The notes beneath the pieces were generated by a model. It ran no database searches. It worked only from the letters and a program-made list of their open reading frames with translations, and was not told where the DNA came from. A stretch of DNA of 42,218 nucleotides from positions 1 to 42,218 of IMG/VR virus record IMGVR_UViG_3300043313_000919, one strand, 5' to 3'. This document shows positions 1,146-30,735 of this stretch, piece after piece. How positions within the stretch are numbered: position 1 is the stretch's first letter; each line of letters opens with the position of its first letter. Source of the DNA: a virus. The translations under genes and the position numbers were made by a program.

Positions 1146-1596
1146 GCGCGGCCTCGCCGCCGTACCGGACAGCAAGCGGCCGGCGCCGCCAGATCTGCGT
1201 GATGCGCTCGCCGAGGCGCTCGCCGCCATGCAATGGAACACCACCGCAGACAACGCCATGATCGCGCTGGCCAAGCGCTATGCGCAGCAGATCGAGGAGG
1301 CCGTCGAGCGCGCCGAGGAGCTCGAGCAGCTGTGGCGCGAGGCTCACCGCATGGGCGACGAGCGCGACCTATTCCGCAAGCGCCTTGAGCGCCTTGAGGC
1401 CAAATGTGAGGTCGACCGCATGGTCGGCTGGCTGGGCCCGCAGCTGCAGGGGGTAATTCGAGAGCTCGGCGGCTCATCGATGGCTCGAAAGTCATTCGGC
1501 AAGGGCAGCGAGGGGGGTAGTCGACTCGATGGCCTCCGCAAACGAACACCTGGCGTTCGACCTGGCGCAGCAGGTACTGGGGAAGACAGCACCTAG
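1132..1596 (+). CDS. terS: Terminase small subunit
   Basis: Probable DNA-recognition subunit of the packaging motor, 154 aa. It lies directly before and overlaps the large subunit by 68 bp, the usual arrangement. The N-terminal RGLAAVPDSKRP stretch, followed by a helical block with 'NAMIALAKRYAQQIEEA' and a coiled-coil region (about residues 45-95), resembles small terminases of actinobacterial siphoviruses. The GTG start at 1132 sits behind a purine-rich site (GAGGGG, 1121-1126). The C-terminal 35 residues are basic and low in complexity and may be a tail that contacts DNA or the large subunit. The call rests on position and helical pattern, because small terminases diverge quickly. Confidence 0.72.
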   Translation: MVTRKRGLAAVPDSKRPAPPDLRDALAEALAAMQWNTTADNAMIALAKRYAQQIEEAVERAEELEQLWREAHRMGDERDLFRKRLERLEAKCEVDRMVGWLGPQLQGVIRELGGSSMARKSFGKGSEGGSRLDGLRKRTPGVRPGAAGTGEDST

Positions 1597-3100
1597 AGTT
1601 TTCACCGCGCCGCTCGTGCAGGGCCCACCCGGCCCGTGCGGGTGCGGCTGCGCGCTGGATGACACCAACACCCTCGGTTTTGCCGTCGAGGAGTTCGCTC
1701 GAGACATCCTCGGCCGGCCATTGTTCCGCTGGCAGCGCTGGCTGGTCATCCACGCCATGGAATTGCTGTCCAACGACTGGCCGCGGTTCCGCCAGGTGCT
1801 CGTGCTGGTCGGCCGGCAGAACGGCAAAACAGAGCTCTGCGTCATCCTCAGCCTCTTCTGGTTGTGGGTGCAGCAGGTGCCCATGGTGCTCGGCACCTCA
1901 ACCAAGCTCGATTACTCGCGCATCTCATGGAAAAAAGCCATCAAGCTCGCGCGGGCCACCGCAGACCTCCGCGGCAACGTCGCCGTGCGCAAGGAGAACG
2001 GCAAGGAGGAGCTCAAGGCCGTCTGGGATGCCGACGCTGAGGATGAGTCGGTGTACAAGATCGCGGCGAGCAACGAGGAGGGCGGTCGCTCGCTGACCAT
2101 CCATCGCCTCATCGAGGATGAGCTCAGGCAGCACCACGACTACTCGGCACACGATGCGGCGAAAAACGCCATGAATGCTGTGGATGACGGGCAAGCGTGG
2201 GCGATCACCAATGAGGGCGATGACCGTGCCGTCGTGCTGCACGATCTGCACGATGACGCGCTGCTGTTCATCGCGCAGGGCCAAGGCGACCTGCGCCTCG
2301 GTTTGTTCTCATACTCGGCCGAGCCAGGCTGCGACCTCCTCGACGTCGAGCAGGCCGCGCAGTCAAACCCCTCGATGGGTGAAAAGGGCGGCGTCAACTG
2401 GCTCAACCTGGTCGGCGACGCCAAGCGAGCGGCACTTAAGGGCGGCGCGGTCGAGGCCGGCTACCGCACCGAGGTGCTGTGCCAGCGGGTGCGCCAGCTG
2501 CGCAGCATGCCTATCAGCCTCGAGGCGTGGGCGGCGACCTCGAAAGACATTCACCCCGACCCCGAGGCCGGTGAGACCTGGCCCGATCCCGTGCCTGACC
2601 AGGGGCCGGCGTTTTTCGTCGTTGTCGGTGAGGATCAAACCTCTGCAGCGATCGCTGTGGCCGGCGGCTACGATGGCCGGCCACATGTCGAGTACGCCTA
2701 CGCCGGCGCACCTGACGGCCTGGTCGCTCGAGCCAAGGAGCTCGCCGAGACTCACCCCCTGGCGCCGTGGGGCGCATTCAACGCCGGCCAAACTCGCGCC
2801 TGGTCGCCGCAGTTCGCCACGTTCAACGTCGAGCTCAAGCTGCTCGGTGTCCCTGAGACCGTCGCAGCCTGCGCGCACCTGCAGCGACTGGCCAATCTGT
2901 TTAGGTTCACCCACTCGCCCAACCAGAGCGCCGAGGAATCACTCGCCGGCGCGGAGCGTCGCAAGACTGTCGGCGGCGGCTGGGTCTGGGATTGGGAGAA
3001 ATCCACCAGTGATCTGACCATGATCAGCGCCGCCACCGGCGCGCTGTGGCTGCTTGAGTCGGTGCCGACCTATAAGCCAGCGTTCGCATTCTCTGCTTAG
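1529..3100 (+). CDS. terL: Terminase large subunit
   Basis: ATPase-nuclease that pumps and cuts genomic DNA during packaging, 523 aa. The N-terminal ATPase carries an 'FRWQRWLV' adenine-binding-like motif near residue 67, Walker A GRQNGKT at 95-101 and Walker B-like LIEDE at 194-198. The C-terminal RNase H-like nuclease begins near residue 361 with a hydrophobic strand followed by an acidic GEDQT. Length and motif order match HK97/phiC31-type large terminases. The ATG at 1529 overlaps the small subunit and has a GAGGGGGG-like site upstream. It is followed after 10 bases by a small membrane gene and then the portal, the standard packaging order. Confidence 0.95.
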   Translation: MASANEHLAFDLAQQVLGKTAPRVFTAPLVQGPPGPCGCGCALDDTNTLGFAVEEFARDILGRPLFRWQRWLVIHAMELLSNDWPRFRQVLVLVGRQNGKTELCVILSLFWLWVQQVPMVLGTSTKLDYSRISWKKAIKLARATADLRGNVAVRKENGKEELKAVWDADAEDESVYKIAASNEEGGRSLTIHRLIEDELRQHHDYSAHDAAKNAMNAVDDGQAWAITNEGDDRAVVLHDLHDDALLFIAQGQGDLRLGLFSYSAEPGCDLLDVEQAAQSNPSMGEKGGVNWLNLVGDAKRAALKGGAVEAGYRTEVLCQRVRQLRSMPISLEAWAATSKDIHPDPEAGETWPDPVPDQGPAFFVVVGEDQTSAAIAVAGGYDGRPHVEYAYAGAPDGLVARAKELAETHPLAPWGAFNAGQTRAWSPQFATFNVELKLLGVPETVAACAHLQRLANLFRFTHSPNQSAEESLAGAERRKTVGGGWVWDWEKSTSDLTMISAATGALWLLESVPTYKPAFAFSA

Positions 3101-8138: not shown

Positions 8139-8651
8139 ATGACTGACGGCAAGGGCCAGGGCCAGGCTGACAAGAAGGCCGCCGAGGATCGCACCGCAGA
8201 GGTCGCGGCCGAGCAGGAAGTCGAGCAGACCGTCGGCACCGACCAGCCAGGGCCGCGCGCCGACAGCGCACCCGAGCGGCGTGAGGTCGACGCTCACCTC
8301 GACCCGTTCCCCGACTACGGCACGGCGGAGCTCGACGAGCTCCGCTCGCTGGTCAGTGAGCGCGGCGTCGAGATCAACCGAGACGTCGAAAAGGCGCAAC
8401 TGATCAAGCAGCTGCGTGACGCTGACATCAAGGCCATCGAGCGCGGCCGCGCGGTCGAGCAGCCCGAGGGCAACGTGTACGCGTCCTATGACGTGGTACC
8501 CCTCGAGAAGCTGCGCGAGCTCGCCAAGAGGCGCGACGTCGCGCTCGATGAGGATTTCGAGCGGGCCCACCTCATCACCGAGCTCAGGGCGGCTGACACC
8601 AGCGGCGGCGTCGGCGTCGAGATCAACCTCGCCGACGGCAGCAAGAAGTAA
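8139..8651 (+). CDS. Protein with two tandem SAP/HeH-like motifs, 170 aa
   Basis: Residues 1-55 are acidic, Gln/Ala-rich and probably disordered. Two similar helix-extended-helix units follow, about residues 60-96 and 117-153, sharing the pattern L-x2-Lr-x-L-x3-R-V ... ka-x-LI-x2-LR-x-AD. This pattern resembles SAP or HeH/LEM-like motifs, which often contact DNA, and similar short repeats occur in phage genes near the head-tail connectors. The AAGGAG site at 8123-8128 supports the ATG at 8139. The protein may touch packaged DNA or organise connector assembly; this is inference. The tandem copy points to internal duplication. Confidence 0.7.
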   Translation: MTDGKGQGQADKKAAEDRTAEVAAEQEVEQTVGTDQPGPRADSAPERREVDAHLDPFPDYGTAELDELRSLVSERGVEINRDVEKAQLIKQLRDADIKAIERGRAVEQPEGNVYASYDVVPLEKLRELAKRRDVALDEDFERAHLITELRAADTSGGVGVEINLADGSKK

Positions 8652-8666
8652 GGGCGGCGGCGCCAG

Positions 8667-9146
8667 GTGCCTAATCCCAATTGGCCAGCACTCCTCGACC
8701 CGATGTCGCTGACCGACGTCAACCCCACCGACGTCGAGGCGGCAATCTCTCGTGTGCGCTCATATTGCGATTGGCACCTGGCGCCGGCATTCGCCGAAAC
8801 CGTTGAGGTGGACGGCGCCAATGGCAGGTGGCGGCTCAACAGCCTCAAGATCACCGCGGTCGCCTCGGTCACCGACATCGACACTGGCCTCGTGGTCGCC
8901 GATATCAAGTTCGAGCGCGGCCGCGTATGGAGCACCGCCTCACGGGCCAGCCGCACCGTGCTTATCAACTTCACCCACGGCTATACGGTCTGTCCGCCCG
9001 ATGTCGTTGAGTTCGTCCGCCAGCTGGCCAAGTCGGGCCCGGTGTCGCCGCCGATCTCGCAGGCCACCGTCGGCACGGTCAACGTGAGTTACCGCGAACC
9101 ATCCTTCGCCGCGCTTAACGACTACAGGCTGCCGCAGATCGCGTAA
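8667..9146 (+). CDS. Head-to-tail connector (gp6/gp15-like adaptor)
   Basis: 159-aa protein, probably the ring that docks below the portal. A helical N-terminus with 'DVEAAISRVRSYCDWHLAP', a strand-rich middle ('ITAVASVTDIDTG') and a C-terminal 'FTHGYTVCPPDVVEFVRQLA' helix match the usual adaptor architecture of HK97 gp6/SPP1 gp15-type connectors. It starts with GTG at 8667 and ends three bases before the translocase gene. The order adaptor, stopper, gp10-like, terminator is preserved except for the intervening translocase. Confidence 0.82.
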   Translation: MPNPNWPALLDPMSLTDVNPTDVEAAISRVRSYCDWHLAPAFAETVEVDGANGRWRLNSLKITAVASVTDIDTGLVVADIKFERGRVWSTASRASRTVLINFTHGYTVCPPDVVEFVRQLAKSGPVSPPISQATVGTVNVSYREPSFAALNDYRLPQIA

Positions 9147-9149
9147 GTC

Positions 9150-10643
9150 ATGCCCCGTCTGCCAGGAGACCACGCCGCGCTCATCCGAGCGGAGCACGTC
9201 AAGGTTGGCGTGTTCGCAACCCTTGCATTCTGGGCGCTGCGTCGCTTCGGTCGAGGATTCCGCATCCTCAGCGCACACCCGATCACCGCGGCCGCGCTGG
9301 CCATCATCATCACCGGCCTCATCGCCAGCCCGTTGCTGCTTGCCGGCATCACCGGCGTCGGCGTCGCTGGCCTCGGTGTGTGGCGTTGGCGATCGCCGGC
9401 CAGCTATCACGAGGCGGTCAGCTTTCGGATACGCGGATTCATCCGCGGCCTCGCCGTGTATCGCCGCAAGTGGAAGCGGGCAATGCTGAAATGCGGCATC
9501 ATCACCGAGCACGAGGCGCCGCCGGTGCTGCTGAGTGTGAGCTCCTCGGCGAGGTCTGGCGTCGACACCCTTAGGGTGCGGATGCCCGACGGGCACAAGG
9601 TGCCGCGTTACGCCGAGCAGGCCTCGGTGCTGGGCCCGACGTTCGGTGGGTTCATCTGCCAGGTCAAGCCAATGCCCAATGTGCAGGGCCCGATTCAAAG
9701 ACGGCTGCCGATCGGGCCGCACGAATCGCTGGCCTACCGGCCGCAAGAGGTGCGCATACAGATCTCGACCCGCGACGTGCTGGTCAAGTCGGTACCACCA
9801 CCCGAGCTCGACGACGCCGACCCGTTCCCGGCCGAGGGGTTTGAGCTCGGCCTCAGGGGCGACTCGCCAACCTGGGAGCCGTCGCCGTTTCGGTTCAAGC
9901 TCAACGCGCCGACCATGATCGCCGGCGCCACCCAATCGGGCAAAACGTCGCTGGTGCGCACCCTGGTGCGTGCCATGTCACCGGGCATCGGTCAGGGCCT
10001 CATCCGCGCCGGCGGAATCAACCCCAAGGGTGACGCCACTCTCGCCGCGGCCGCGCATCTGTTCGATCGCTACATCGCCGGCGCAGCTGGTGGCGATGTC
10101 ACGATGTTTGAGGAGCCGATCACTCTCGAGCTCGAGACCTGGGTCAAGTTCCTGCGGTTCAGGGCCGAGGAGCTCGGCAGTGGTTTCGAGGAGTTTCGGC
10201 CGTCGCTTAAGTACCCGCTGCTGCCGCTGGTCATTGATGAGGGTGCGCTGCTGGTGTTCTACGCCACCCACCCCAAGCTGCGCCGGCGCATGCGTTCGGC
10301 CGTCTCGATTCTGGCCAGCCAGGGCGCCGGCCTCGGCGTCATCCCGGTGTTCCTGGTGCAAGACCCCCGCATCGAGATTGTGCAGATGCGTGAGTTGTTC
10401 ACCCGCAAAATTGCGATGCGTGGCGCGGGGTTGGTGTTGACGCACAATGGTGAGCTCGCCGATGACATCCCTGACGACGGCAAGCACCAGGGGTATGCGT
10501 TCCTCGAGGAGCAGGGGCACGCCGTGCTCACTCGCTGGCGAGCGGCGTACACCACCGTGCAGGACGTTCGGATGTGCGCACCGCACCCCGCGCTGCCACC
10601 GCTGGTCAGCGAGATGCGGCTCAGTCCGGTTGCAATGGCCTAA
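9150..10643 (+). CDS. FtsK/SpoIIIE/TraB-like DNA translocase, membrane-anchored
   Basis: A 497-aa protein with two hydrophobic helices at about residues 45-62 and 63-78, a 170-residue linker, and a RecA-type motor with Walker A GATQSGKT at 259-266 and Walker B LPLVIDE at 358-364. The layout matches the FtsK/SpoIIIE superfamily and the single-protein conjugation translocases of actinobacterial plasmids and integrative elements (TraB/TraSA), which pump double-stranded DNA through a hexamer. A C-terminal winged-helix gamma domain is not evident: only about 130 residues follow Walker B. The gene is inserted between two connector genes and sits 3 bases after the upstream stop, so it is expressed with head genes. 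A small hairpin follows at 10712-10740. Its role in the phage is unknown. Confidence 0.85.
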   Translation: MPRLPGDHAALIRAEHVKVGVFATLAFWALRRFGRGFRILSAHPITAAALAIIITGLIASPLLLAGITGVGVAGLGVWRWRSPASYHEAVSFRIRGFIRGLAVYRRKWKRAMLKCGIITEHEAPPVLLSVSSSARSGVDTLRVRMPDGHKVPRYAEQASVLGPTFGGFICQVKPMPNVQGPIQRRLPIGPHESLAYRPQEVRIQISTRDVLVKSVPPPELDDADPFPAEGFELGLRGDSPTWEPSPFRFKLNAPTMIAGATQSGKTSLVRTLVRAMSPGIGQGLIRAGGINPKGDATLAAAAHLFDRYIAGAAGGDVTMFEEPITLELETWVKFLRFRAEELGSGFEEFRPSLKYPLLPLVIDEGALLVFYATHPKLRRRMRSAVSILASQGAGLGVIPVFLVQDPRIEIVQMRELFTRKIAMRGAGLVLTHNGELADDIPDDGKHQGYAFLEEQGHAVLTRWRAAYTTVQDVRMCAPHPALPPLVSEMRLSPVAMA

Positions 10644-10711
10644 TTAGATTTCTCCCCCACCTGCCCGGTAGTCAGTCATGCGGACGTACTCGCACAGCGT
10701 GGATCGGGAGA

Positions 10712-10740
10712 GCCAGACAACGGCGGGCGCGCGGTCTGGC
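10712..10740 (+). terminator. Short inverted repeat after the translocase gene
   Basis: GCCAGAC at 10712-10718 and GTCTGGC at 10734-10740 form a perfect 7-bp stem around a 15-base GC-rich loop. It lies in the 121-base gap between the translocase stop and the stopper gene and may end or attenuate the upstream message. No T-run is present. Confidence 0.35.
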
Positions 10741-10764
10741 ACCAAAACCAAAGAAGGGGGCACG

Positions 10765-11085
10765 ATGGCGCTGCCTCCACAATTCCGCGTGCACAGCGTC
10801 ACCGTCGAAACGCAGACCGCTGAGAGTGGCCTCGGCGACCTGTACGCCGCGCCGGTGCGCGTCGCTGGGTTTCTCGATTACAACCGCCAGATTGTGCGAG
10901 CTCGAGACGGCGCCGAGGTGGTGTCCGAGGCCACGTTCCTCACCGACCTCGACGCTGTTGGCGTTTTTGTTCCCGACTCGAGGGTGACGCTGCCCGACAG
11001 TACGCAGACATACGTGCTCAGCGCCAGGCCGCGAGATGACGGCGGCATCACCGGCCTGGCGCATCTCGAGGTCACACTGCGTTGA
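10765..11085 (+). CDS. Head-tail stopper/closure protein
   Basis: A 106-aa beta-rich protein started from the ATG at 10765 behind AAGGGGG. Segments such as 'DGAEVVSEATFLTD', 'PDSRVTLPD' and a final 'GLAHLEVTL' match the small stopper proteins (SPP1 gp16/HK97 gp7-like) of actinophages, which close the connector after packaging. The upstream in-frame ATG at 10678 has no ribosome site and falls in the hairpin region, so it was rejected. Neighbours are the gp10-like and tail-terminator genes. Confidence 0.75.
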   Translation: MALPPQFRVHSVTVETQTAESGLGDLYAAPVRVAGFLDYNRQIVRARDGAEVVSEATFLTDLDAVGVFVPDSRVTLPDSTQTYVLSARPRDDGGITGLAHLEVTLR

Positions 11086-11098
11086 CAGGAGGCTCGCT

Positions 11099-11449
11099 AT
11101 GGCCGACGGCTGGACAGGGCACCTCGACGTAGGGCCCATACGCTCCGAGACACGCAGCGCCGCCGCTGAGGGCCTGCAGCAGGCCGCTGAGCGGGTGGGC
11201 GAGCGTTCCGATGCCGACGTGCCGGTGCAGACCGGCCGGCTGCGTGGATCTCGCCGCGTCAGCACCGACCGCCAGGCGCTCGAGGCCGTGGTCAGCTATG
11301 ACACCTCCTACGCCGTCGAGGTGCACGAGGACATGAGCAGGCACCACCCCGACGGCCACGCCAAATATCTCGAGGGTGCATTCAACGAATTGCGCGCCTC
11401 GCTGCTCGATGAGGTCGCCGCCAAGATCCGACAGGCGTGGGGTTCATGA
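11099..11449 (+). CDS. HK97 gp10-like head-tail/tail component
   Basis: A 116-aa protein of the HK97-gp10 family. The diagnostic part is 'DVPVQTGRLRGSRRV' followed by 'SYDTSYAVEVHEDM' and 'GHAKYLEGA'. Members act at the head-tail joint or as a tail component placed between stopper and terminator. Its start has a strong CAGGAGG site. The stop overlaps the ATG of the tail terminator by four bases. Confidence 0.85.
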   Translation: MADGWTGHLDVGPIRSETRSAAAEGLQQAAERVGERSDADVPVQTGRLRGSRRVSTDRQALEAVVSYDTSYAVEVHEDMSRHHPDGHAKYLEGAFNELRASLLDEVAAKIRQAWGS

Positions 11450-11892
11450 ATCTTGACGATTTCGATCAGGATCTGCTCGAGGGGTTTGCTCAGCTGCTGC
11501 AGGTCGAGGGGGTCGGTACCTACCGACCGACCGCCGGCTATGCCGTCAGCGAGACGGGCATTTACCTCGAGGGCACCCCCGACACCGCCAGCCGAGTGAT
11601 TCAGCTGACCACGTACAGCGTTGACGAACATCCCGCCTACGGCAGCGACGTCATCGGCCTGCAGGTCATCACCAGGTGGGAGAACGCTAACCCGTTCCCC
11701 TGCCGCAGGCTCGACACGCAGATTTTCAACCGGCTGCAGGGCCGCGCCAGCTTCACACTGCCAACGGGTATACGTGTCGAGACCTGCTCGAGGCGCTCGG
11801 GCGCCTCGCTCGGCATGGACTCCTCGAAACGTTGGGGCCGCTCGAGTAACTATTACCTCCGTGTCCACCGTCCGACGCTCTACCGCCTCTGA
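11446..11892 (+). CDS. Tail terminator protein
   Basis: 148 aa, in the position where the hexameric protein that caps tail-tube growth is expected. It has an N-terminal helix ('LDDFDQDLLEGFAQLLQ') and then an alternating strand pattern with 'RVIQLTTYSVDEHP' and 'GLQVITRW', like actinophage tail terminators of the HK97 gpU type. In most related phages the major tail protein comes next; here a tailspike-like gene and a small gene intervene. Confidence 0.78.
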   Translation: MNLDDFDQDLLEGFAQLLQVEGVGTYRPTAGYAVSETGIYLEGTPDTASRVIQLTTYSVDEHPAYGSDVIGLQVITRWENANPFPCRRLDTQIFNRLQGRASFTLPTGIRVETCSRRSGASLGMDSSKRWGRSSNYYLRVHRPTLYRL

Positions 11893-11901
11893 GGGGGGTC
11901 A

Positions 11902-13572
11902 ATGGTCACACTGCGCAACCTCGAGACCGGTGACATTGTTGTTGTTTCGAGTACTGTCGCTATCTGGCTAATGGCCAATGGCGCGTGGGTGGTCGCGTCA
12001 GGCTCACTCAATGTTGACCCAACCGATGATGCTGCCTTTGCCGTCCCTGCGCCTACCGGTGTTGCCTCCATCGATACGGCGAACATTCAGGCTCGAATTG
12101 ATGCAGCGAATGCGGCCGGCGGCGGCCGTGTGATTGGGCCAGGCGGCCGCGGAACGCGCGTGTTCTCTGTGACCACATTAAGGATGCGTTCCTACGTTTC
12201 TTTAGAGAACATTTCTTTGAAGTTGAGTGACAACACTAATGGCAATGTGATTGAGCTGTATAATGCGCGGCAGGAACAGATTGGACTGCGCAATATCTAC
12301 ATTGATGGCAGTAAAGCCAGCCAGACCGCTGGTCATGGCGTCTACATCATCAACGACTCCAACACGAACGGCGCCTTTGCATCGGGGTTATTGAACCCGC
12401 ACCATTTCATTGACAATCTGCTTATTCAGAACTGCAAGCAAGACGGTCTGCGTCTGGACGGCGACACTCTCGGCGGCGAAAACCACGTCTCTAACGTGTT
12501 CGCCTACGCCTGCGACCGGTACGGCTTCTATGCCATCACCCCCGACAGCTTCTGGGATCGCTGCGTCTCCGGCCAATCCGGCGAACAGGGCTTCTATTTG
12601 GAATCACCGAACAGTCGTTACAACAACTGCAAATCATGGTTTTCCGGGCGCCTCGATTCCAGCAAGGGCGACGGGTACTACCTCACCTCGGGGATGCGGC
12701 AAGAGCTTACCGGCTGCGAGGCGCAGGATAATAAGCGTCACGGATTCGTTTTATTCACCACCAAATACGCCACCCTAACCGGATGCATCGCCGATTCCAA
12801 CGGCCAGGGCGCCTCCGGCGCCGGTTACCGGATCGACGGCGCTCAGGGCTGCTATATCAGCGGGCTGTCGTATGACCGGCAGATCACACCGACTCAGATT
12901 AACCACCTCTCGATAGCCAATGCTCCTATCGGCAACTTGATCGACCTGGCCTGCGGACCTTACGCTGCCGGTGGCGCCGCCATCAATGGAGCTATCGGCA
13001 GCAACAGGGTTCGCGCAGTTCCTTTCAGCGACAACGATGCCCGATCTAGATACGGAGCTTTTGACCGTGGCTGGGTTGCTGAGAATATGCCGATTGATTC
13101 AGCCCTGAATGCGACAACACCAACCGTTGCGGGCCGGATGGAGTTCGCAAAGGTTCGGCTCCCTGTCGATGCGACCATCACGAATGTTCTGCTGGGGATG
13201 AGCGCCGTGGGGTCGGGACTGACGGCAGGTCAGTGTTTCGCCAACCTCTACACCGGCGCCGGAGTGAAGATCGCGTCAACCGCCGACCAGGCGAGCAACT
13301 GGGCCAGCGGCGTAGGGGTCAAGGCGATGGCCCTAGCTGGTGGGCCGTACGCACGGACCGCTGGCGACTATTACGTCACCTGGTGGTACAACGGCACGAC
13401 CTCCCCGACCTGGCTGCGCTCATCCGGGCAGGGCTCCGGGTTTATCAACGCAGGATTTTCTGCACCTAACTTGTTGTGGGGTTCGGCCGATACCGGTTTG
13501 ACGACGACAGCACCAGCGAACATGGGCACTCAAACGGGGCAGGGCAGCGCTTTCTACGCAGGCCTGTCCTGA
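11902..13572 (+). CDS. Right-handed beta-helix tailspike/pectate-lyase-like protein
   Basis: A 556-aa protein with an N-terminal attachment-like part, a linker with 'IDTANIQARIDAANAAGGGRV' (a classic entry to phage beta-helix depolymerases) and then repeated short strands with Asn, Gly and Cys from about residue 85 to 330 ('GLRNIYIDG', 'IDNLLIQNCKQDGLRLDG', 'GFYLES', 'LTGCEAQDNKRHGFVL'). Residues 380-556 form a separate beta-rich C-terminal domain. Such proteins bind or cleave host polysaccharide. The gene sits between tail terminator and major tail protein instead of the baseplate region. Its codons use T and A at third positions far more than neighbours, especially at 12160-12330, suggesting recent acquisition. 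Confidence 0.85.
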   Translation: MVTLRNLETGDIVVVSSTVAIWLMANGAWVVASGSLNVDPTDDAAFAVPAPTGVASIDTANIQARIDAANAAGGGRVIGPGGRGTRVFSVTTLRMRSYVSLENISLKLSDNTNGNVIELYNARQEQIGLRNIYIDGSKASQTAGHGVYIINDSNTNGAFASGLLNPHHFIDNLLIQNCKQDGLRLDGDTLGGENHVSNVFAYACDRYGFYAITPDSFWDRCVSGQSGEQGFYLESPNSRYNNCKSWFSGRLDSSKGDGYYLTSGMRQELTGCEAQDNKRHGFVLFTTKYATLTGCIADSNGQGASGAGYRIDGAQGCYISGLSYDRQITPTQINHLSIANAPIGNLIDLACGPYAAGGAAINGAIGSNRVRAVPFSDNDARSRYGAFDRGWVAENMPIDSALNATTPTVAGRMEFAKVRLPVDATITNVLLGMSAVGSGLTAGQCFANLYTGAGVKIASTADQASNWASGVGVKAMALAGGPYARTAGDYYVTWWYNGTTSPTWLRSSGQGSGFINAGFSAPNLLWGSADTGLTTTAPANMGTQTGQGSAFYAGLS

Positions 13573-28870: not shown

Positions 28871-29583
28871 GCCAGGAAACCATCACCGACGCCAGGAGCC
28901 ACCGAGACTGCGAGCACGAGGGCACGCCGGCAGCGCGAGCTCAATGCCGTAAGGAGAGGCTCGCAGCGCAGGCCGTGCGGTCTGCCGAGGCACGCATCGC
29001 CGAGCTCGAGGAGCGGGTCGCGCAGCAGGAGCGCACAATCGACCGTGCGGCCGCGCGCAACGGCGCGCTGCAGCTCGACCTCGAGACGGTGCGCAACCAG
29101 CTGGCCCGTGCCTCGCGTGAGCTCAATGAGGCCTGGCTAGCTAAGGATCGCGCCATCGATGACCGTGACAAGGCGCAGGCCGTGGCCGACAGTCTGCGCG
29201 ATCTCATCAAGAAGATGCGCGGCCGCATCGAGGAGCTCGAGAAGCACAAGCGCGACAGCGACGCCACCATGCATCGCGCCAACGGCCTGCTGTTTGCGCA
29301 GGATGCCGCCATCCGAGTCTCGACCGTCGTTCTCGACGGCCTGCTCCTCGAGCAGGGGCGGGGCACGCCGCGCCTGGTGGCCACCGCCGAGGAGCTCGAT
29401 GAGCTCAAACCTGGCAGCGTGGTGCGCCGCAACGGCCAGGTGTACATCAAGAAGGCCAACGCCGCCGGCACCGTGTGGAAGTCGACCGAGTGGAAGTCGA
29501 CCGATGGCCACTACTCGAGCAGCCACATGCTGGCGGCCGCCGGCGAGCGATTCACCATCGAGGTGCTGCATGCGGCGCCTTAA
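28867..29583 (+). CDS. Coiled-coil protein with C-terminal beta domain, 238 aa
   Basis: Residues of about 25-145 are a long charged coiled coil ('ARIAELEERVAQQERTIDRA', 'MRGRIEELEKHKRDSD'). Residues of about 165-238 form a small beta domain ('AEELDELKPGSVVRRNGQVY') seen in other phage proteins of unknown role. A perfect 15-bp tandem duplication at 29475-29504 encodes the doubled WKSTE/WKSTD segment. It overlaps the phosphodiesterase gene by 14 bases. Confidence 0.75.
   Translation: MSQETITDARSHRDCEHEGTPAARAQCRKERLAAQAVRSAEARIAELEERVAQQERTIDRAAARNGALQLDLETVRNQLARASRELNEAWLAKDRAIDDRDKAQAVADSLRDLIKKMRGRIEELEKHKRDSDATMHRANGLLFAQDAAIRVSTVVLDGLLLEQGRGTPRLVATAEELDELKPGSVVRRNGQVYIKKANAAGTVWKSTEWKSTDGHYSSSHMLAAAGERFTIEVLHAAP
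29475..29504 (+). repeat. Perfect 15-bp tandem duplication
   Basis: GTGGAAGTCGACCGA occurs twice end to end (29475-29489, 29490-29504), adding five in-frame residues in the C-terminal domain of the coiled-coil gene. The perfect identity suggests a recent slippage event. Confidence 0.85.
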
Positions 29584-30421
29584 AACCATCACCGCGATCG
29601 CGCTGGCGATCCTCACCATAGGAGCACCCATGGCAGCAGCAGCTGGACCCCACGCGCTCATCGCCCACCGCGGCGTATTCGGCGCAGTGGCGCAGGAGCT
29701 CGGCATCGCCGAGAGCGGCCTCAAGGCGCTCACGTGGGCAGAAGACAACGGCGCCGACATCCTTGACACCGACGTCGTGCTTACGACTGAGCCGTCGGGC
29801 AGCCACAAGCTGGCGGCGTCTCACGACGTCACCGCCGACCGGGTGACCACCTGCAGCGGTGAGATCTATGATCACTCGCTCGATTGGTTCAAGGCCTGCC
29901 TGCTCGAGTTGCCCGATGGCACCAACACCACCGAGCACCCTGCCAGCCTCAACCAGGTGCTCGATCTGTTCCTGACCTTCCCCTCGGCCCGCAAGCTCAC
30001 CCTTGAGACCAAGGGCCCGGGCTGGTCGCAGACCATGGTCAACCGGCTGCGCGACGTGCTCAGAGACAAGGGCCTGCTCAGCTCGCGGGTGATTGTGCAC
30101 TCATTCAGCGAGTCGCTGCTCCTCAAGTTCAAGAGTGCCGGCATACCCGCCCGCGGCATCGTGGTCGACAGCACCAATCGGCCGAGCGTCGCAACGGTCA
30201 AGTCGTACGTCGGCAGCCTGGGCGCCGGCTGGGCGTTCTGCAAGCTCGAGGTGGTCAATGAGGCCTACGTGCAGTCGCTGCGCGCCGCCGGCGTCAAGGT
30301 CGCCATCTGGACGCTGGACAACCAGACCGAATACGGCGCCGCCATGAAACTCGGTGACGTCGATGGCTGGGTCGTCAACGATCTGCTCGGCGCCCGTAAG
30401 TATCTGGCGAGCGTGACCTAA
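29570..30421 (+). CDS. Secreted glycerophosphodiester phosphodiesterase (GDPD)
   Basis: 283 aa. Residues 1-25 are a signal peptide (MRRLK, hydrophobic core, MAAAA cleavage). The mature enzyme starts with 'ALIAHRGVFG' (His33, Arg34), has an acidic cluster with Glu48 and Asp66/Asp68 and 'ASHD' (His85), and then the barrel strands 'KLTLETKGPG' and 'VAIWTLDN'. This matches the GDPD TIM barrel, which hydrolyses glycerophosphodiesters with a metal ion. Being exported, its substrate would be outside the host membrane: deacylated phospholipids or glycerophosphate polymers of the wall. It is placed in the early region rather than with lysins, just before the pentamer repeats. Confidence 0.88.
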   Translation: MRRLKTITAIALAILTIGAPMAAAAGPHALIAHRGVFGAVAQELGIAESGLKALTWAEDNGADILDTDVVLTTEPSGSHKLAASHDVTADRVTTCSGEIYDHSLDWFKACLLELPDGTNTTEHPASLNQVLDLFLTFPSARKLTLETKGPGWSQTMVNRLRDVLRDKGLLSSRVIVHSFSESLLLKFKSAGIPARGIVVDSTNRPSVATVKSYVGSLGAGWAFCKLEVVNEAYVQSLRAAGVKVAIWTLDNQTEYGAAMKLGDVDGWVVNDLLGARKYLASVT

Positions 30422-30433
30422 GAAGAGCGTTGC

Positions 30434-30588
30434 GAGGCGCGGCTAGGCGAGGCGTGGCGTGGCAAGGCGAGGTGTGGCAAGGCACGGCAATGCGAGGCTA
30501 GGCGAGGCCGGGCACGGCACGGCGAGGCGCGGCAAGGCGAGGCCGTGCAAGGCGCGGCCAGGCAGGGCAGGGCCGGGCGAGGCGGGGC
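30434..30588 (+). repeat. Pentamer repeat array, left arm (31 x NNGGC)
   Basis: Thirty-one consecutive 5-bp units fit NNGGC with few mismatches; common units are GAGGC, GCGGC, AAGGC, GTGGC and ACGGC. The third base onward (GGC) is nearly constant and the first two vary. No open frame with a ribosome site uses it. It begins 13 bases after the GDPD stop and, with the right arm, fills most of the gene-free stretch 30422-30773. Confidence 0.9.
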
Positions 30589-30645
30589 AGGGGTTTCACC
30601 AGCAGCGACGGTCTCCGATCGGGTTCGACTCCCGATGCTGCACGC
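30589..30645 (+). other. Unique core with tRNA T-arm-like hairpin between the pentamer arms
   Basis: A 57-base non-repetitive core contains ATCGGG (30618-30623), the loop TTCGACT (30624-30630) and CCCGAT (30631-30636); the loop matches the tRNA T-loop consensus TTCRANY exactly. A second stem pairs CAGC (30600-30603) with GCTG (30637-30640). A full tRNA cannot be folded, because acceptor and anticodon arms are missing. It may be the 3' end of a broken tRNA, an attachment-site-like core, or a structured RNA. Confidence 0.55.
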
Positions 30646-30735
30646 GAGGCGCGGCATGGCAGTGCGAGGCGAGGCCGGGCGCGGTGTGGCAAGGCCGGGC
30701 GCGGCGCGGCGCGGCGAGGCGAGGCAGGGCAGGGC
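30646..30735 (+). repeat. Pentamer repeat array, right arm (18 x NNGGC)
   Basis: Eighteen further units in the same orientation as the left arm, with runs of GCGGC and GAGGC. The array ends 38 bases before the RAMP-like gene, whose ribosome site GGAAGG lies just downstream at 30762-30767. Confidence 0.9.

Follow-up and report, generated by a model that had tools for sequence, protein, structure and literature searches.

An AICE-type DNA translocase gene apparently captured into the head–tail connector operon of an actinobacterial siphovirus

The open reading frame at 9150–10643 of the window (the whole stretch of DNA analysed here, a linear IMG/VR record of 42,218 bases) is very likely a captured AICE-type tra gene. 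It encodes a 497-residue membrane motor of the FtsK superfamily and lies between the genes for the head–tail adaptor and the head–tail stopper, with the triplet GTC separating the adaptor stop codon (TAA at 9144–9146) from its own ATG at 9150. AICE-type Tra is known to carry out conjugation as a single protein. In AICEs sensu Ghinet et al. a single FtsK-like Tra moves dsDNA (PMC3218068), and Tra/TraB alone transfers dsDNA from cell to cell in AICEs and Streptomyces plasmids (PMC3218068, PMC9513070). In the open literature searched, we found no report of an AICE-type tra gene within a phage virion operon. The limits of the reading frame, its location three bases past the adaptor gene, the intact Walker motifs and the two-helix anchor are all in agreement with the first-pass annotation. 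The features of the region are as follows.

8667–9146, + strand: head–tail adaptor gene (phrog_442, E = 6e-22), the left border of the insert; contiguous with the stopper gene in relatives
9150–10643, + strand: gene for an AICE-type Tra / FtsK-like membrane DNA translocase (497 residues, ATG start), assigned from homologs and structure
9210–9392, + strand: N-terminal predicted membrane helices (residues 21–42, 44–58 and 61–81), from DSSP on the AlphaFold model and hydropathy
9840–10601, + strand: RecA-like motor domain (about residues 231–484), within the structural match to TcpA and FtsK
9924–9947, + strand: Walker A, GATQSGKT (residues 259–266), from sequence
10236–10241, + strand: Asp363–Glu364 of Walker B (LVIDE), invariant in 41 sequences
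10359–10361, + strand: Gln404, the invariant glutamine of the QDP motif in the family alignment
10644–10764, no strand: 121 bp gap between the tra insert and the stopper gene
10765–11085, + strand: head–tail stopper gene (phrog_3881, E = 2e-20 for the ORF read from 10678), the right border of the insert

The late module of the window is of the normal siphovirus type, with the order terminase (1529–3100), portal, protease, major capsid protein, adaptor, stopper, neck, tail terminator, major tail protein and tape measure. The large terminase is normal (phrog_9, E = 3e-47). At the nucleotide level, positions 1–25,000 do not match any known phage.

The FtsK HMM check that the first-pass annotation had proposed gives a match to PF01580 (FtsK_SpoIIIE), but for the window protein alone it reaches 17.3 bits and stays below the curated cut-off of 24 bits. 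PHROG 1358 (FtsK) matches weakly (E = 1.6e-4). The family assignment therefore rests on homologs and structure. All 41 members of the family match PF01580 at E ≤ 0.01 (best 2e-19), and the family profile reaches Escherichia coli FtsK at E = 7e-24. The best relative in tblastn, a protein with an FtsK domain, belongs to pMR2 of Micromonospora rosaria (33% identity over 83%, E = 6e-40); its gene stands in the order GntR-like regulator, FtsK, DUF2637, replication initiator, xis and int. Homology to the Tra proteins of AICEs and plasmids spans both the membrane and the motor parts, with coverages of 83–94% and E values down to that of pMR2. Together with the Z scores of 25–27 of the AlphaFold model, the tblastn result places the relatedness to the Tra/FtsK family far beyond chance. 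A profile scan with one genome per species returned 448 chromosomal relatives. Among the best 80 of these, 79 lie beside a RepSA-type rep gene (median distance 154 bp) and 66 are also near a detectable integrase gene. The lengths of the AICE relatives are mostly 458–530 residues.

Searching 50,697 phage records by tblastn with the window protein gave no direct phage homolog, and its own peptide patterns have no match in IMG/VR. In the tree the window copy is nested among the AICE and plasmid sequences on a very long branch with weak support; a single clade of all phage copies is not rejected by the AU test (p = 0.39).

An AlphaFold model of the window protein was built on 41 homologs (mean pLDDT 83, pTM 0.75) and compared with solved structures, also using Foldseek. 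The closest solved structure is the conjugation ATPase TcpA (PDB entry 6o1z; Z = 26.7, r.m.s.d. 4.9 over 332 residues), and the FtsK motor (PDB entry 2ius) superposes with Z = 25.5 and an r.m.s.d. of 3.7 over 311 residues. These matches cover residues of about 95–488 of the model. A PDB sequence search with the single window protein returned nothing relevant, so the family profile and the model are needed to see the structural relatives. Hydropathy predicts two adjacent hydrophobic segments (residues 36–54 and 56–77) in the N-terminal region, and the model has the three helices listed above. The N-terminal [RK]xPGD motif is common to the window protein and the Tra proteins of Nonomuraea, Herbidospora, Streptosporangium and others (AICEs of Streptosporangiales), which supports the ATG at 9150 as the start and the capture of a complete gene.

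Walker A, Walker B and every other column that is invariant across the 41 homologs are retained in the window protein; in Walker A the invariant residues are Gly259, Thr261, Gly264 and Lys265. Gln404 may occupy a sensor-like position. AICE Tra has 62 positions with a conservation of 95% or more; 39 of these (63%) are retained in the window copy, compared with 88% or more in the AICE sequences and 73–90% in other phage copies, and it is the most diverged of the copies examined. It lacks the QVxMVLGxGA segment, one conserved loop, as well as the arginine of the QGR motif, and the aspartate of DPKG is replaced (Asn291). Judged from the sequence, these losses may reflect a changed task or a weakened motor.

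The protein terminates about 13 residues past the motor, which ends at about residue 484 of 497. This leaves no room for an FtsK γ domain or for the C-terminal HTH of TraB. The short C-terminus looks like a trait of the subfamily, since many AICE relatives end there too. The 'FtsK/TraB' label of the first-pass annotation thus holds as a motor of the type used by actinobacterial conjugative elements, while 'TraB' proper is too narrow for a protein missing the C-terminal DNA-recognition domain.

Compared with AICE Tra proteins (the pMR2 type and that of a Nonomuraea AICE), the window protein is of equal length class and shares the N-terminal membrane region, the α/β FtsK motor, the Walker motifs and a QDPR...R(D/E)LF motif; many AICE Tra proteins likewise have no C-terminal extension of the size of a wHTH. 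Unlike in AICEs, the gene is found in a virion operon that has no rep, xis, int or spd, the identity is 33% at most, and the DPKG aspartate, the QGR arginine and the QVxMVLGxGA segment have been lost. The Tra protein of the Streptomyces plasmid pIJ101 (TraB/Tra type, as is TraB of pSVH1) has a homologous motor (hhalign probability 98.5%, E = 2.9e-15, using the family profile), but its 648 residues run about 100 residues beyond the aligned motor. In TraB the C-terminal HTH reads 8 bp clt repeats (PMC5365140). FtsK and SpoIIIE have a similar motor fold, yet the window protein has neither the γ domain nor the long linker, and its sequence is far closer to AICE Tra than to FtsK/SpoIIIE. TcpA, the conjugation coupling ATPase of Clostridium perfringens pCW3, operates with a T4SS-like apparatus (PMC5365140), none of which was found in the window. 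FtsK-superfamily motors are also known on phages, namely gp199 of Omegavirus Minerva, those of the Streptomyces phages Jay2Jay and Gilgamesh, and ORF63 of Thermobifida phage P1312 (PMC4569894). In the three records viewed these genes lie outside the head–tail genes, and a tblastn search with the window protein does not recover any of the group.

The slot between adaptor and stopper was compared in 13 relatives, comprising five annotated phages and eight related loci, and is empty in all of them, although none is a very close relative. In phages SV1 and Alderaan (Streptomyces), GMA1 (Gordonia), 1191A (Arthrobacter) and Quenya (Microbacterium) the preceding connector gene abuts or overlaps the stopper gene. 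The related loci are L088 and seven loci on chromosomes whose stopper, terminator and tail genes are homologous; in these an upstream ORF stops at most a few tens of bases from the stopper, and the slot shows no FtsK gene. Relative to these, the window carries an insert of 1.6 kb consisting of the tra gene and the 121 bp gap, an arrangement that identifies it, at the level of sequence, as a one-gene capture into the head–tail connector operon. The 80 relatives of the major capsid protein in IMG/VR all lack a tra gene. Since they have different connector genes as well, they say nothing about the slot, which was therefore compared in relatives with the same stopper and tail module.

The codon fit of tra (0.308) is inside the range of the head genes (0.27–0.36) and its GC3 signature is the same as that of the virion genes, so the gene did not arrive recently from a source whose codon usage differs. 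Conservation in the same slot, a check suggested in the first-pass annotation, is not borne out. The same annotation had named absence from close relatives together with a decayed composition as signs against a functional pump. The gene is indeed absent from these rather distant relatives, while its codon use is ordinary and its frame open.

An 8 bp direct repeat, AGTCATGC, at 9146–9153 and 10674–10681 frames the tra insert. It was spotted post hoc; perhaps it is a trace of the junction, and it may equally be due to chance.

Co-expression with the virion genes, also claimed in the first-pass annotation, is suggested by the layout. No σ70-like promoter was found across 8500–11500, though promoters of other types may be present. 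The 121 bp gap holds neither a promoter-like nor a terminator-like site, and its RNA folds no better than shuffled sequences (z = −0.18). An autonomous moron with its own promoter and terminator was rejected on these grounds.

A profile scan of IMG/VR for the translocase family gave 16 loci. In five high-GC phage contigs that are unrelated to the window, an AICE-like tra gene also sits inside the virion operon, in a different slot:

L094, 9782–11275: AICE-type translocase directly downstream of the portal/protease gene (phrog_859)
L095, 1443–2942: AICE-type translocase directly downstream of the portal/protease gene
L096, 2821–4250: AICE-type translocase directly downstream of the portal/protease gene
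L097, 9536–10774: AICE-type translocase directly downstream of the portal/protease gene
L099, 4728–5954: AICE-type translocase directly downstream of the portal/protease gene

The major capsid gene lies downstream of the translocase gene in L094 (phrog_777), L097 and L099, the three contigs that are long enough. The head genes of this group (phrog_776/777) belong to families other than, and unrelated to, those of the window. Its translocases are nearer to the AICE consensus (79–90% of the conserved positions in the two tested), and their pairwise dN/dS values, from simple Nei–Gojobori counts, are 0.30–0.59. The finding that a phage has captured a conjugation-type translocase is real and well supported, and it has a parallel in an unrelated phage group. 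Elsewhere, the translocase gene is upstream of the terminase gene in L102 and L103, and in L103 also upstream of the portal gene, while in L098 and L100 it is in stretches without recognized head genes. By tblastn, an AICE rep gene is found in none of the phage-like IMG/VR loci. L093, although listed as a virus, was rejected as a phage locus; it is an AICE with Tra, a RepSA-type rep gene and an integrase gene, and its Tra is nearly identical to one of Kribbella antiqua. The translocase of L100 (9158–10981) carries a C-terminal extension, which probably accounts for the one MUG113/T5orf172 (GIY-YIG-like) match of the family scan.

The prim-pol, which the first-pass annotation had taken as a second trait of an integrative conjugative element, has its best matches among actinophage primase/polymerases, with 82 phage records, identities of up to 43% and a best E value of 1e-25, versus three weaker plasmid matches. 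It is, by sequence, an ordinary phage gene of a type common in actinophages, and was rejected as an AICE trait since phage-type matches dominate. AICE Rep (RepSA-type), integrase and Spd have no significant match in the window, and neither a relaxase nor a VirB4-like gene is among the window ORFs scanned, a set that covers the small ORFs in part. As for clt-type repeats, the window shows only short tandem repeats away from the tra gene.

We propose that an actinobacterial siphovirus captured a complete AICE-type tra gene into its connector operon, early enough for the gene to have adopted phage codon usage. Tra would be made late, together with the virion proteins; at the membrane of the cell or at the septum it would assemble into a ring of six subunits and drive double-stranded DNA at the expense of ATP. 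The first-pass annotation had raised genome entry, clearing of DNA and transfer between mycelial cells as putative activities; from what is known of the family, dsDNA being transferred or positioned at the membrane fits best. The window Tra is probably an active dsDNA pump, and for capture and pump activity taken jointly the balance is slightly favourable. The diverged residues count against an active pump, since the motor may be altered or weakened, and no partner (Spd, Rep or clt) was found in the window. As there is no C-terminal DNA-recognition domain, the target DNA would probably be selected by location, concentration or a partner. The likeliest benefit would be that phage DNA or cut host DNA crosses the septa between hyphal compartments, spreading or positioning genomes before lysis, in analogy to the Tra/Spd systems that spread plasmids. 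This movement within the mycelium is a tentative proposal, with the substrate and the benefit inferred; a mycelial host is suggested by the hosts of relatives.

The position among the head genes may instead reflect a role in virion assembly, where the translocase would clear or feed DNA at assembly sites near the membrane or assist packaging. Such an aid to morphogenesis would explain the head-cluster position in two unrelated phage groups and the location upstream of terminase or portal genes in L102 and L103, but we consider it unlikely: the window has a normal large terminase, the 13 relatives with the same connector build manage without tra, and the protein has a predicted membrane anchor. 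A captured gene that is tolerated under relaxed constraint and has no present function would fit the long branch, the lost conserved residues and loop, and the absence from all relatives examined. An open frame of 1.5 kb with the codon and GC3 signature of the virion genes, the retained core ATPase residues and the purifying selection on the copies of the parallel phage group make such a decaying passenger quite improbable.

It is very doubtful that the phage Tra acts in a conflict between elements, joining or competing with the Tra hexamers of resident AICEs or plasmids, blocking conjugation or excluding other phages. Such a role would fit a protein that has diverged from its family in hosts where AICEs abound, and whose predicted motor keeps the family fold while several conserved residues are lost; however, Walker A and B are intact, unlike in a typical dominant-negative protein, a late operon fits exclusion poorly, and at 25–33% identity mixed hexamers are unlikely. 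An AICE fragment wrongly joined to a phage contig during assembly is hardly credible. No near relative with the tra gene was found, but tra is a lone gene flanked on either side by phage genes of one module in their proper order, its composition and codon fit are those of the phage genes, and no other AICE gene was found in the window.

Returning to the captured DNA pump, its relatives lie among the particle genes of unrelated viruses, so a conjugation motor may serve some phages in the late phase of infection. A lone tra gene in the head–tail operon of one phage, and its conservation between portal/protease and capsid genes in an unrelated phage group, suggest that membrane DNA pumping can belong to the late programme. 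It is conceivable, if rather speculative, that in unrelated lineages phages of mycelial actinobacteria have brought conjugative dsDNA translocases into the virion operon and employ them late in infection to carry phage genomes or host DNA across septa or to adjacent cells. If true, this would be a phage with a built-in conjugation motor, and it becomes a testable question whether phage infection spreads along a hypha, or DNA moves between cells, without virions.

Three further regions of the window deserve mention. Positions 29570–30421 hold a phage-borne gene for a glycerophosphodiester phosphodiesterase (GDPD; PF03009, E = 4e-13) with an N-terminus resembling a signal peptide, and positions 30432–30725, a stretch without a called gene, contain short imperfect G-rich tandem repeats (period 5/15). 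A gene for a right-handed β-helix protein (PF13229, E = 2e-8) at 11902–13572 lies between the tail terminator and major tail protein genes, which are almost contiguous in the relatives L218 and L219. Its codon fit is −0.028, compared with 0.24–0.44 in all other long genes tested, and it is a second, probably more recent insert in the connector/tail cluster.
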